A stretch of 64,000 nucleotides of DNA from Bacteroidaceae bacterium. GTDB lineage: Bacteria > Bacteroidota > Bacteroidia > Bacteroidales > Bacteroidaceae. The stretch spans positions 17,772 to 81,771 of the forward strand of contig JAGAQH010000012.1 of NCBI GenBank assembly GCA_017622815.1. Reading direction: 5' to 3'. The notes under the pieces were generated by a model. It was given only the letters and a program-made list of their open reading frames with translations. It searched no databases and was not told the DNA's origin. Position numbers and translations under genes: made by a program. This document shows positions 3,939 to 56,905 of this stretch, piece after piece; positions within the stretch are counted from its first letter, which is position 1; every line of letters begins with the position of its first letter.

Positions 3939-5108
3939 TCATTCAGTGAGGGCAACAATCTGTCCAAAATGTTTCCAAGGCTCACTTGCCTTATAACTAT
4001 CAATAGAGGCAGCAGGAACGCGAAGGATGGAGTTTTTTATGAAAGAAGTATCAAATGCGTAAGCAAAAATGTAGTGAGGATATGGATATGAAGATGCAGT
4101 AGGCACTTTTTCTGCATAGCAATAGACTTCAAGCAATTTAGAGCAACCATCGAAAGCAAAACCACCTATGCTCTCCACACTATTGCCTATAATAACCGAT
4201 GTCAAACCCTTGCAATAGGAGAAAGCATAATCCCCAATGCTCTCCACACTATTGTCGATAGTAACCGAAGTCAAGCCCTTGCAACTATAGAAAGCCTCAT
4301 TCCCAATGCTCGTCACACTATTGGGGATAGTAACCGATGTCAAACCTTCGCAATATCCGAAAGCACTATTCCCTACGCTCTTCACACTATTGGGGATAGT
4401 CACCGAGGTCAAACTAGAGCAAAAATAGAAAGCATATCCCCCTATGCTCGTCACACTATTTGGGATTACCAAATCCTTTACTTCTTCTCCATTAACATAT
4501 AAGCGATGAGCTTGTGATAAAGGGTTAGACGCATTTTCTTTAAAATCAACATTGCACCATGAACCAATATCAGAGATATGAACCGAAGTCAAACTAGAGC
4601 AACCACGGAAAGCCTCCTCCTCTATTCTCTTCACACGATCAGGAATAGTTATCGAGGTCAAACCAGAGCAATACGCGAAAGCCTCCTCCCCTATGCTAGT
4701 TACACTATTTGGCAACACTATATAAGTCAAAGTGGTCTTACTTTTAAAAGCTTTTGCCTCTATAGCCGTTACCTCGGATGCGAACTCGATTGTTCCATAC
4801 CCCTTGGTTGAGGAATATGTATTTGACAAAATCTTTGCACCACCGAAAACATCCTCATTTTTAAAACGGACAATAATATCATCATTAGTGATATAATAGA
4901 TAATATTGTTGGGGATGTTACTAGGAATACCATTTGGATGCACTATCTTATCTTCATCATTGTCAGCATCATCATTACCATCCTCGCTACCATCATTGTT
5001 ATCGCCTTGCTCAGTATCAGGAACAATATCGTCCTTGCTACATGACGTAAAATTCACGTTCAACAGGATACCCAACAGCAGCATCGTAAACAATCTGAAA
5101 AACCTCAT
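3939..5108 (-). CDS. BspA-like leucine-rich-repeat surface lipoprotein
   Basis: 389 residues. Signal peptide MRFFRLFTMLLLGILLNVNF is followed by a lipobox ending TSC, so the mature protein begins at the Cys of CSKDD. The acidic SKDD directly after the lipidated Cys resembles the lipoprotein export signal that sends Bacteroidetes lipoproteins to the cell surface. An Asp/Glu/Asn-rich linker (about 28-52) precedes seven or more LRR_5 repeats (IPNSVTSIGxxAFxxCxGLTSV). The C-terminal block ends YKASEPWKHFGQIVAL, common in this family. A GGAGG ribosome-binding site precedes the ATG. The likely role is adhesion or binding of host or neighbour-cell surfaces. It stands alone between the palindromic repeat and gapA. 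Confidence 0.88.
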   Translation of the reverse strand: MRFFRLFTMLLLGILLNVNFTSCSKDDIVPDTEQGDNNDGSEDGNDDADNDEDKIVHPNGIPSNIPNNIIYYITNDDIIVRFKNEDVFGGAKILSNTYSSTKGYGTIEFASEVTAIEAKAFKSKTTLTYIVLPNSVTSIGEEAFAYCSGLTSITIPDRVKRIEEEAFRGCSSLTSVHISDIGSWCNVDFKENASNPLSQAHRLYVNGEEVKDLVIPNSVTSIGGYAFYFCSSLTSVTIPNSVKSVGNSAFGYCEGLTSVTIPNSVTSIGNEAFYSCKGLTSVTIDNSVESIGDYAFSYCKGLTSVIIGNSVESIGGFAFDGCSKLLEVYCYAEKVPTASSYPYPHYIFAYAFDTSFIKNSILRVPAASIDSYKASEPWKHFGQIVALTE

Positions 5109-18077: not shown

Positions 18078-18135
18078 CATTGATATTCAGACTTCATCCA
18101 AGCCTCAACAAAAGACCAGATTAGTCGTCATTGAG

Positions 18136-18273
18136 GACAAGGACGAGTCACCGAGGGTGACAAGGGCGAGTCACCGAGGGTGACAAGGACGAGTCACCGA
18201 GGGTGACAAGGGCGAGTCACCCGGGACAACAAGGGCGAATCATCCGGGACAACAAGGGCGAATCATCCGGGAG
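18136..18273. repeat. Six tandem 23-base repeats
   Basis: Six consecutive 23-base units, core GACAAGGGCGAGTCACCGAG, the last two diverged to CAACAAGGGCGAATCATCCG. They lie between convergent transcription units. The unit has no dyad and there are no spacers, so this is not a CRISPR array. The same 23-base unit recurs at 56816-56900. Confidence 0.85.
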
Positions 18274-18380
18274 GACAAAATATCGTTGTCAGTGAGGGCA
18301 AAAACAGATTGTAGGCACGATGGAAAAGGGACATGCCAACAGACATCTTTTGCCTCTCCTGCAACACACGAAAGAAACAA

Positions 18381-36327: not shown

Positions 36328-39300
36328 ATGGAAATACAGAAACTTCAGAAACTCATAGGACGCTCGCCCAAGGTGAAAGCCCTGGGACGATTGCTGGCAG
36401 ACGAGGGATTGAGGGAGATAAGGCTGGGAGGACTGGTGGCAAGTGCCGCACCGGTACTCTTCTCTGCCCTGACTGAGAAGTGCCCCGAGGTGCTCACACA
36501 CCCCTACATGTTCATTATGGATGATGAGGAGCAGGCGGGCTACTTCTATCACGACCTCACACAGATACTGGGCACAAGCCAGGTGTACTTCATGCCGAGC
36601 AGTTTCCGCCGTGCCGTGAAGTACGGCCAGCGCGATGCCGGCAACGAAATACTGCGCACGAATGCACTCTCGGCACTGACGAACGGAAAACGGAAATCTG
36701 CGAGTAAGCGAGAGCAATCAAACTTGTTTGAATTGCCGAGCGGAAGCAGATTCGACGGAGTCAAAACGGAAAACGGAAATCTTGATGAACGGAAAACGGA
36801 ACCGCTCACCGCTCACCGCTCATCCGCCCACCTCTTTGTGGTCACTTACCCCGAGGCTCTGACCGAACTGGTGGTGAGCAAAAAGGACCTGCAAGACCAC
36901 ACCATTGCCTTGGCGGTAGGCGAGATGCAGGACATCAGGGAATTGCAGAAGGGACTGATGGAACAGGGCTTCCGCCGCACTGACTACGTCTACGAGCCGG
37001 GGCAGTTTGCCGTCCGCGGCTCGCTGGTGGACGTGTACAGTTTCTCGCACGAGCACCCTTTCCGCATAGATTTCTTCGGCGACGAGATAGACAGCATACG
37101 CACCTTCGACGTGCAGAGCCAGTTGTCGCTGGAACGACTGAAGGAAGTGCGCATAGTGCCGGAACTGGCACAGGACCGGGACGGGCGCATCTGCATACTG
37201 GACTTCCTGCCCGAAAGCACACGCCTGGTGATGCACGACCGCGTCTTCCTCTGCGACGAGGTGGACCGCATCTGGCAGGAGGGTTTCTCCCTGTCGGCAC
37301 GCATTGTGGAGATGGAAGAGGGCAGCAACGGAACAGACGGCAGCACGGCCCTGGTGCGCGAACACGTGCTTACGGAACCTGACAAGTTCCGCCACCGCCT
37401 CCTGGACTTCCGCACAATCCTGCTGGACACGGCCGCAAGCGGACAGGCCAACCTGTCGTTCAACATAAGCCCCCAGCCCATCTTCCACAAGAACTTCAAC
37501 CTGCTCACACGCGAACTCCTGCGCTACCAGCACGAGGACTACGACATATACATCCTGGCGGACAGCACCAAGCAGACGGACCGTCTGGAGAGCATCTTCC
37601 ACGACATGCAACTGGGCATACGCTTCACTCCCGTAGAGAAAACCCTGCACGAGGGGTTCGTGGACCACGACCGGCGGTTGGTACTCTTCACCGACCATCA
37701 GATATTCGACCGCTTCCACAAGTACAACCTGCGCTCGGAGCATGCCCGGAGGGGCAAGATGGCGCTGACGCTGAAAGAGATACAGCAGTTCCAACTGGGC
37801 GACTACGTGGTGCACATAGACCATGGCGTAGGTCGCTTCGGCGGACTCATCACCATACCCGAGGGCGAGCGCATGGTGGAGAAGATACGCATAAACTACG
37901 ATGGCGGAGGCGTCATCTACGTTTCCATACATGCCCTGCACAAGGTGTCGAAGTACAAGGGGCAGGACGGCACTCCGCCCAAGGTGAACAAACTGGGTGG
38001 CCGCGCATGGGAGAACCTGAAGGAGCGCACCAAGAAGAAGATAAAGGACATAGCACGCGACCTGATACGCCTCTACAGCCGCCGCCGGCAGGAAAAGGGT
38101 TTCCGCTTCTCGCCGGACACATACATGCAGACGGAACTCGAAGCGTCCTTCCTCTACGAGGACACTCCCGACCAGTTGAAGGCCACACAGGAGGTGAAGG
38201 CCGACATGGAGCGCCAGCGCCCGATGGACCGCCTAGTGTGCGGCGACGTGGGCTTCGGAAAGACGGAAGTGGCCATACGCGCCGCCTTCAAGGCCGCCAC
38301 GGACGGCAAGCAGGTGGCCGTACTCGTGCCCACCACGGTGCTGGCATACCAGCACTACCGCACCTTCACCTCACGCCTGAAGGACATGCCCGTAAGGGTG
38401 GATTATCTCTCACGTGCACGCTCGGCAAAGGACACCAGGGAACTGCTCGCCGACCTGAAGGACGGAAAGATAAACATCATCATAGGCACGCACCGGCTCA
38501 TAGGCAAGAGTGTGAAGTTCCAGGACCTGGGCCTGCTCATCATCGACGAGGAGCAGAAGTTCGGAGTCTCCACCAAGGAGAAACTGCGCCAGATGAAGAC
38601 CAACGTGGACACACTCACACTGACCGCCACACCCATACCTCGCACCCTGCAGTTCTCGCTCATGGGGGCACGCGACCTGAGCGTCATACAGACTCCCCCA
38701 CCCAACCGCTACCCCATACAGACACAGGTATGCTGCTTCTCGGCCGACGTCATTGCCGAGGCGGTAAGTTTCGAGATGAGCCGCAACGGACAGGCCTACA
38801 TCGTGTCCAACCGCATATCCTCCCTGCCCGAACTGGAAAGCATAGTGCGCAAGTACGTTCCCGACGCCAGAGTGGTGACAGGACACGGACAGATGTCGCC
38901 CGAGAAACTGGAGGAGATTATCCTGGGCTTCGTGAACCACGACTACGACGTGCTCATCTCCACCACCATCATAGAGAGCGGCATAGACATACCTAATGCC
39001 AACACCATCATCGTATGCTCGGCACAGAACTTCGGCCTGTCCGACCTGCACCAGATGCGAGGTCGTGTGGGACGAAGCAACCGCAAGGCATTCTGCTATC
39101 TGCTGGCACCTCCGTTCTCAGGCCTGAACCCCGAGGCACGCCGACGCCTGCAGGCCATAGAAACCTTCTCCGACCTGGGAAGCGGCATACACATAGCCAT
39201 GCAGGACCTGGACATACGAGGGGCGGGAAACCTGCTTGGAGCGGAGCAGAGCGGCTTCATTGCCGACCTGGGCTACGAGACCTACCAGAAGATTCTCTCC

Positions 39301-39855
39301 GAGGCGGTGAAGGAACTAAGAAACGAGGAGTTCCAAGACCTCTATGCCGAGGAAGCCAACAAGGTGGCAAGCGAGGCACAGGCCACGGACTTCGTGGACG
39401 AATGCCAGTTGGAGACCGACCTGCCGGCACACCTGCCCGAAACCTACGTGCCCACCAGCAGCGAGCGCATGCTCCTCTACCGCGAACTCGACCAGATGGA
39501 GCAGGACCACCAGATAGAGGCTTTCTGCACCAGGTTGAAGGACCGCTTCGGCCCCATGCCCAAGGAGGCCGAGGACCTGTGCAACCTCGTACGCCTGCGC
39601 CGCCTTGGCAAACAACTGGGTGCCGAGCGCCTGGTGCTGAAGAACGGCCAGATGCGCCTCTACTTCGTCCAATCCGAGCAGAGTCCCTATTACCAGGGCC
39701 ATGCCTTCGGCCAGATAGTGGCATACTACACCATCAATGCCGCCAACTGCCAACTCTCCGAGCGCAACGGCCACAAGTTCCTCAACATAGCCCGCGTGGG
39801 CAACGTACGGACAGCACTCACCACACTGGAGAACATATCCGCAATAAAGCCATAA
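36328..39855 (+). CDS. mfd: Transcription-repair coupling factor Mfd with a repeat-derived insertion
   Basis: 1175 residues against about 1120 in relatives. Mfd removes stalled RNA polymerase and recruits UvrA for repair. UvrB-like N-terminal modules are followed by the RNA-polymerase-interacting domain (GDYVVHIDHGVGRFGG). Then come the helicase motor with VCGDVGFGKTEVAIRAAF (Walker A), IIDEEQKFG (DEEQ box), TATPIPRTLQ and QMRGRVGRSNRKAFCYLL, and a TRCF domain (YVPTSSERMLLYREL). Residues about 119-167 are not Mfd-like: they are encoded by heptamer repeats and a palindrome (36682-36828) and interrupt the conserved run between EILRTNALSAL and HLFVVTYPEAL without breaking the frame. A terminator follows the stop. 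Confidence 0.95.
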   Translation: MEIQKLQKLIGRSPKVKALGRLLADEGLREIRLGGLVASAAPVLFSALTEKCPEVLTHPYMFIMDDEEQAGYFYHDLTQILGTSQVYFMPSSFRRAVKYGQRDAGNEILRTNALSALTNGKRKSASKREQSNLFELPSGSRFDGVKTENGNLDERKTEPLTAHRSSAHLFVVTYPEALTELVVSKKDLQDHTIALAVGEMQDIRELQKGLMEQGFRRTDYVYEPGQFAVRGSLVDVYSFSHEHPFRIDFFGDEIDSIRTFDVQSQLSLERLKEVRIVPELAQDRDGRICILDFLPESTRLVMHDRVFLCDEVDRIWQEGFSLSARIVEMEEGSNGTDGSTALVREHVLTEPDKFRHRLLDFRTILLDTAASGQANLSFNISPQPIFHKNFNLLTRELLRYQHEDYDIYILADSTKQTDRLESIFHDMQLGIRFTPVEKTLHEGFVDHDRRLVLFTDHQIFDRFHKYNLRSEHARRGKMALTLKEIQQFQLGDYVVHIDHGVGRFGGLITIPEGERMVEKIRINYDGGGVIYVSIHALHKVSKYKGQDGTPPKVNKLGGRAWENLKERTKKKIKDIARDLIRLYSRRRQEKGFRFSPDTYMQTELEASFLYEDTPDQLKATQEVKADMERQRPMDRLVCGDVGFGKTEVAIRAAFKAATDGKQVAVLVPTTVLAYQHYRTFTSRLKDMPVRVDYLSRARSAKDTRELLADLKDGKINIIIGTHRLIGKSVKFQDLGLLIIDEEQKFGVSTKEKLRQMKTNVDTLTLTATPIPRTLQFSLMGARDLSVIQTPPPNRYPIQTQVCCFSADVIAEAVSFEMSRNGQAYIVSNRISSLPELESIVRKYVPDARVVTGHGQMSPEKLEEIILGFVNHDYDVLISTTIIESGIDIPNANTIIVCSAQNFGLSDLHQMRGRVGRSNRKAFCYLLAPPFSGLNPEARRRLQAIETFSDLGSGIHIAMQDLDIRGAGNLLGAEQSGFIADLGYETYQKILSEAVKELRNEEFQDLYAEEANKVASEAQATDFVDECQLETDLPAHLPETYVPTSSERMLLYRELDQMEQDHQIEAFCTRLKDRFGPMPKEAEDLCNLVRLRRLGKQLGAERLVLKNGQMRLYFVQSEQSPYYQGHAFGQIVAYYTINAANCQLSERNGHKFLNIARVGNVRTALTTLENISAIKP
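36682..36828. repeat. In-frame palindromic/heptamer repeat inside mfd
   Basis: About 147 bases (49 codons). AACGGAA units occur at 36682-36695, 36765-36779 and 36788-36800. A 58-base imperfect hairpin spans 36695-36752, with arms AATCTGC / GCAGATT and centre GCAATCAAAC-TTG-TTTGAATTGC. Three CGCTCAC heptamers lie at about 36803-36823. The same AACGGAA heptamer array sits after miaA at 2153. Confidence 0.85.
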
Positions 39856-56815: not shown

Positions 56816-56905
56816 CTCATGTCCTCCCGAGGACCTTGGCGAATCATCGGTGGTGACAAGGGCGAGTCATCGGTGGTGACAAGGCCTTGTTCTCCCGAGG
56901 ACAAA
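56816..56905. repeat. 23-base repeats, second locus
   Basis: Units with core GACAAGGGCGAGTCATCGGT at a 23-base period (about three units), plus CTCCCGAGGAC flanks on both sides. The family is the same as at 18136-18273. Both loci lie between convergent genes. Confidence 0.75.

Follow-up and report, generated by a model that had tools for sequence, protein, structure and literature searches.

The window analysed here, 64,000 nt of DNA from a Bacteroidaceae bacterium (assembly GCA_017622815.1, contig JAGAQH010000012.1, positions 17,772 to 81,771), carries an mfd gene, encoding the transcription-repair coupling factor, whose open reading frame (ORF) runs through a stretch of repeats. Pfam finds UvrB_inter, CarD_TRCF_RID, DEAD, Helicase_C and TRCF domains in the Mfd ORF, all downstream of the insert; the identification is also backed by matches to solved Mfd structures, and the N-terminal block preceding the insert is conserved among relatives. 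The repeat-derived residues 119-167 (NGKRKSASKREQSNLFELPSGSRFDGVKTENGNLDERKTEPLTAHRSSA) lie between EILRTNALSAL and HLFVVTYPEAL. The original prediction, that repeats make up 49 codons of mfd with the frame kept, holds: the AACGGAA heptamers, the 58-base hairpin and the CGCTCAC heptamers are all present, and when Mfd from relatives was aligned the stretch was missing from all 29 other loci (for one of them, in genome G017, the upstream part is in a different frame, so only the downstream part aligned). At the nearest of these loci, in G004 (84% identity downstream of the site), a short loop, RGGN, takes the place of the insert; the nearest named sequence is that of Prevotellaceae bacterium UBA711 (84% over the downstream part of mfd). 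Palindromic insertions that keep the frame are known chiefly from Rickettsia and Wolbachia.

Table 1. The mfd gene and the parts of its insert (window positions)
Feature	Position	Strand	Basis or remark
mfd, transcription-repair coupling factor	36328-39855	+	1175-aa ORF, open through the insert
Entire repeat-derived stretch, 49 codons, residues 119-167	36682-36828	+	absent from 29 other aligned Mfd loci
AACGGAA heptamers upstream of the element	36682-36696	+	terminal AAA (36694-36696) is the left triplet, a phase-0 lysine codon
Element core, 66 nt, encoding SASKREQSNLFELPSGSRFDGV	36697-36762	+	covariance-model match 36694-36768, 92.2 bits
Hairpin I, arms AATCTGC / GCAGATT, 58 bases	36695-36752	+	paired changes in 26 aligned copies
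Hairpin II, GAC-GGA-GTC	36754-36762	+	read from the letters by eye
Right triplet AAA (36763-36765), then more AAAACGG-type heptamers	36763-36801	+	sequence
ACCGCTC (CGCTCAC) heptamer array	36801-36832	+	final few bases are downstream coding sequence

The mobile unit is the two-hairpin core (66 nt in mfd) between two AAA triplets, set in AAAACGG heptamers. We delimit it as the hairpin core plus triplets rather than as the full 147 bp because the hairpin occurs without heptamers in three other genes. The proposal that the insert is a mobile element is supported, for a unit smaller than had been supposed. Other copies, which had been named as a sign of mobility, are numerous in the genome, both between and inside genes: a 191-bp region around the insert matched 49 places including itself (the best other at 99% over 98 bases), and a covariance model gave 92 matches. 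The copies in this genome follow a common plan, in which heptamers (mostly AAAACGG) are followed by TCTGCGAGTAAGCGAGAGC, a palindromic centre, GCCGAGCG..AGCAGATTC, a small second hairpin and again heptamers. The centre is exchangeable, being AATCAAACTTGTTTGAATT in 9, AGAAGCAAAGTTTACTTTGATTAT in 4 and AGAGGAAATGCATTTACTCT in 4 of 33 arm pairs, and a nested palindrome containing GTAG in a few copies; the counterpart of hairpin II in other copies is GACCAAAGGTC or CCGCAAAGCGG. Other genomes of the genus have the same kind of hairpin with different adjoining heptamers (GAAGAGT in G008, ATTGAAA in G001, AAAAGTG in G016). The hairpin structure is maintained through paired changes: over 18 pairs in 26 copies, 89.3% of cells were paired, with changes on both sides in 14 of the 18 pairs, a level reached by none of 500 shuffles, and slid versions of the structure gave 26-44%. 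The 26 copies were hand-picked and the structure was drawn from these same sequences, which favours it. An Rfam search returned a single match, at 18 bits against a gathering score of 60, and none above threshold.

The covariance model, built from hand-picked copies and applied to at most 114 candidates per genome under stricter filters, matched in 27 of 41 genomes: 24 of these belong to the genus, of which 25 genomes were covered, and the other three, with 8, 4 and 1 matches, come from the 16 genomes outside it. Copies numbered 92 in the window's own genome (G000), 61 in G001, 42 in G006, 37 in G017 and 31 in G008; the relatives' loci considered below were taken from the best of the matches listed. 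Virus-like contigs, some of which may be host DNA, yielded 28 stretches by pattern scan, and one element searched against plasmid and phage records found no match at E 0.01.

Filled and empty sites could be compared in three other genes. The lipocalin gene of G017 reads ATC-AAG-[72]-AAG-GAC, against the empty ATC-AAG-GAT of G001 and ATC-AGG-GAC of G014. For phosphoglucomutase (PGM), G014 is filled (CAG-AAG-[72]-AGG-TAT); all 17 other genomes searched match the gene on either side of the site with next to no DNA, or none, in between, and where the site was readable (16 of 18 loci) no insert was present and AAR was followed by TAC or TAT in 11. The iron alcohol dehydrogenase (Fe-ADH) gene, again filled in G014, reads ATC-AAG-AAG-[72]-AAA, against ATC-AAG-AAA-ATA at the empty site of G027 (89% identical). 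Thus, the 72-nt core sits between AAG and AAG (lipocalin), AGG (PGM) or AAA (Fe-ADH) where the relative has a single triplet, its ends reading GCTGCG or GCTCCG and GGTC or GGCC. Each of the three insertions is 75 nt, or 25 codons, in a common frame (K-A..EREQS..); mfd, arranged as AAA-[66]-AAA, has the same frame, and the length keeps the reading frame in all four genes. Domain III of PGM (Pfam domains I-IV were found) spans the insert, and for Fe-ADH and the lipocalin (Lipocalin_2) the best Pfam stretch starts after it. These comparisons suggest an insertion rule, by which the element would land next to an AAR triplet, usually after C or G, and end with a like triplet on both sides.

The sequence context was also read across copies, with flank, length and skipping counts covering parsable, unique copies away from contig ends. 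In the four bases upstream of 109 unique copies, A or G occupied -1 in 89%, A occupied -2 in 98% and -3 in 93%, and C or G occupied -4 in 88%. When the assumed core length was scanned from 55 to 94, identical flanking triplets peaked at 72 in relatives (18 of 67 copies; 73 came next with 11, and the 32 lowest lengths averaged 2.3) and likewise in virus-like contigs (7 of 40, the next 5 at 66, the corresponding mean 0.6). Among 84 parsed copies the two triplets were equal in 22, versus at most 4 with the reference frame shifted by 1-6 bases, and AAR stood on the left in 66; a crude end finder gave a length of 72 in 27 and a multiple of three in 39. The first 72 nt had on average 2.62 of six frames open, versus 1.93 in shuffles, the three sense frames being open in 54%, 60% and 7% of copies.

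We consider it highly probable that the insert is a mobile, non-autonomous element with two hairpins in about 72 nt, which inserts beside AAR so that like triplets border it on both sides. An enzyme that recognises the hairpin, perhaps in single-stranded form, could bring this about by duplicating 3 bp of the target. With core plus triplet often measuring 75 nt, landing in a gene can lengthen it by 25 codons and leave the frame intact, and this mode of insertion suggests why reading frames can survive. The added peptide would be translated and tolerated, being hydrophilic and placed in a variable loop. In mfd, the AAAACGG array may have offered AAA targets, or array and element may have arrived together. 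The consequence for Mfd is most likely close to neutral; its loop tolerates changes in length and gathers repeats in several lineages.

Several observations weigh against this account. The triplet duplication is exact in the lipocalin gene and one base off in PGM and Fe-ADH; 5 of the 16 empty PGM sites are not AAR-TAY, and AAA stands at the place in one of four empty Fe-ADH sites read, three more distant loci having CGC, CGC and AGA. AAR was found on the right by the crude end finder in just 34 of the 84 parsed copies. In the window's own genome, core length is variable, flanks are AAA-rich and identical triplets show no peak at 72 (2 of 47 copies; lengths 77 and 81 did best, at 10 copies apiece), and support for the rule therefore comes from relatives and virus-like contigs. 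Folded singly, the 147 nt are of unremarkable stability (z -0.66 as DNA, -0.79 as RNA), and the evidence for the hairpin is therefore the paired changes among copies rather than energy. A uvrA paralogue of the same genome (L009, G000:C20, ~129.6-129.9 kb) has two tandem elements and CTCACCT heptamers between conserved blocks, and its frame is lost; another UvrA gene there has an open frame of 943 aa. As to a source of mobility, half-sites paired up to 4 kb apart in the fetched loci gave only 104-111-nt spans with a nested GTAG palindrome and no larger autonomous copy, and no Y1 transposase (PF01797) was found in the own genome, which is 88% complete; on that ground we rejected this enzyme as the mobiliser. 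Among 15 genus mates searched, four had a match to it, three of them over the cut-off and one strong (G013). The genomes compared are incomplete drafts.

A bolder version of the mobile-element account is somewhat less likely than not, and we put it forward tentatively. The element would be frame-neutral, core and duplicated triplet each being a multiple of three, with the AAR target (a lysine codon in phase 0) setting the frame of a hydrophilic peptide; it would spread as a 25-residue tag through genes of bacteria and their viruses by means of an enzyme unlike those of known palindromic-repeat and miniature-transposon systems, and the Mfd and UvrA loops would repeatedly collect repeats. Copies in other genes were sought in the fetched loci as frames open for at least 45 codons on each side, giving 21 rows from 147 hits, some copies appearing in two frames. 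In-frame copies lie in conserved genes, mfd and PGM among them. The element lies antisense and outside the domain in FecR_C-domain proteins of G017 and G002, and in the second sense frame, again outside the domain, in a DUF3987 protein of G001; a protein of the own genome with a weak DUF3987 match (below cut-off) has an in-frame remnant. An ORF of G004 with the element near the start of the frame has no Pfam match and is presumably a restriction-specificity subunit, judging by a motif. Several ORFs of virus-like contigs also read through the element in its main frame; one of them matches MutS_I, and many are open on the opposite strand too. A preference for repair genes is not concluded, as in-frame copies also occur in metabolic, envelope and DUF3987 genes.

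The heptamers belong to a repeat class of their own, which in other species occupies the Mfd loop without the hairpin. In a 464-kb sample (the window plus 20 stretches chosen by us from larger contigs), tandem runs of period 7 numbered 17, versus at most 9 for any other period from 4 to 18. One could therefore imagine that slippage of heptamers is primary: the tract would grow and shrink, the hairpin would arrive by recombination between tracts and, 7 not being a multiple of 3, changes in copy number could even act as an on-off switch for Mfd in some species. This is unlikely in our view, although the loop does offer it material. Among 96 loops read at 110 Mfd loci (the loop finder misses 14, that of G017 among them), six, including the window's, have period-7 runs of at least 8 matches and none has runs at other periods from 4 to 12, with about 0.1 in shuffles. 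AACTC-type heptamers are found in G001, a CTCACCT heptamer in frame at L129, and at L112 (Bacteroidaceae bacterium RGIG8693) a reversed relative of the element together with AATTGA-type heptamers, in frame. In G017 (L052), CTCACCT repeats at the Mfd site coincide with a frame change, as slippage would produce, but this may be an assembly error; and the hairpin without heptamers in the three other genes argues against slippage as the origin of the element. The UvrA loop of some relatives also bears repeats, by eye. We take the recurrence of repeats in the Mfd loop as tolerance of a variable loop. The CTCACCT pattern was rejected as a marker, being found in only 3 of 25 genomes (G017 was outside those searched). 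Separately, the Mfd gene of L112 (279-3941, + strand) has a second stretch, HPEQREGSQKKSKGEILHFVQND, in a different loop, which we take to be a repeat of a kind seen in other genomes. At L222 (14566-19110, + strand), an AcrB-type pump and an outer membrane efflux protein are fused in one 1514-aa open frame via AAAACGG heptamers.

Somewhat less probable still is that the hairpin is retained as a host RNA or DNA signal between genes, with the mfd copy a by-product. The strong paired changes would fit such a role, as would the several copies that adjoin a GCAAAGGTA motif, whose reverse complement, TACCTTTGC, we take to resemble the Bacteroidetes -7 promoter box. However, copy number ranges from 0 to 92 within one genus and the centre is freely swapped, both as expected of mobile DNA. 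In three intergenic copies (L294, L296 and L321) the element splits a GCAAAGGTA-like motif, the order being GCAAA or CAAA, the element, then AAAGGTACG or AAAGTTACG. Finally, by translational bypassing, a known phenomenon, ribosomes would here jump between the two AAR codons and leave the element out of the protein. The identical or like codons flanking the hairpin would fit this, but it is very improbable and not favoured: mfd and PGM, both supported by homology, and the DUF3987 gene are open through the element, which skipping would not require. Removing the core in silico gave long frames in 20 of 109 copies, many of the 20 being blocked with the element present; of five blocked loci inspected, at least three have the copy between genes by neighbouring ORFs (one is ambiguous).

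Among known systems, the closest in mode of action are the Rickettsia palindromic elements (RPEs), short palindromic elements lying between genes and in frame within conserved protein genes, as PMC2229807 describes them. The likeness originally drawn to them stands for mode of action. An in-frame palindromic element absent from orthologues was found in mfd, PGM, Fe-ADH and the lipocalin gene. There RPEs measure 105-146 bp and have 12-bp terminal inverted repeats, with the target duplication listed as unknown (PMC2229807); unlike them, the element here is ~72 nt, with AAR flanks and no terminal inverted repeats seen, a comparison of descriptions, not sequences. Repetitive extragenic palindromes (REPs) tagged with GTAG or CGTC are, according to PMC3733652, palindromic repeats of which some lie within ORFs of uvrA, uvrB, recB and others; there some RPEs are counted as CGTC REPs, which lack a dedicated transposase, and the authors speculate on mutators for REPs in repair genes. 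The word mfd is absent from the main text of PMC3733652. In contrast to these REPs, our element has no GTAG or CGTC tag at its ends, and no Y1 transposase was found in its genome. Like miniature inverted-repeat transposable elements (MITEs), it is non-autonomous and present in many copies, and it has at its site what may be a short duplication; unlike MITEs, its ends are not inverted repeats (three 72-nt cores compared by eye) and the fetched loci gave no parent transposon. We call it a variant of the protein-coding palindromic kind, set apart from GTAG/CGTC REPs and MITEs by missing defining features and likened to RPEs by description, not by sequence. Heptanucleotide repeats of Beggiatoaceae, Cyanobacteria and some Bacteroidetes form period-7 arrays, some in ORFs, according to PMC4679880, and reports on such repeats are called rare in PMC4692102. 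Their hallmark, an excess of period 7, is present here, but the units (AAAACGG, ACCGCTC, CTCACCT) are different ones, and they flank the element without being part of it. Full-text searches of open-licence papers turned up no description of such an element in Bacteroidales.

The host lineage is a genus of Prevotella-like bacteria, across which the element is multi-copy, and it is carried by some virus-like contigs as well. Several insertions have empty sites in relatives, so that their ends, target and frame can be resolved to single bases; this opens the survival of selfish DNA inside genes to testing, in a gut lineage as well as in its virus-like contigs. Elsewhere in the window, 23-base tandem repeats of GACAAGGACGAGTCACCGAGGGT type lie at 18133-18278 and 56838-56884, and 69-base repeats, which we take to be of the kind in leucine-rich-repeat surface proteins, at 2400-2962 and 4140-4731.
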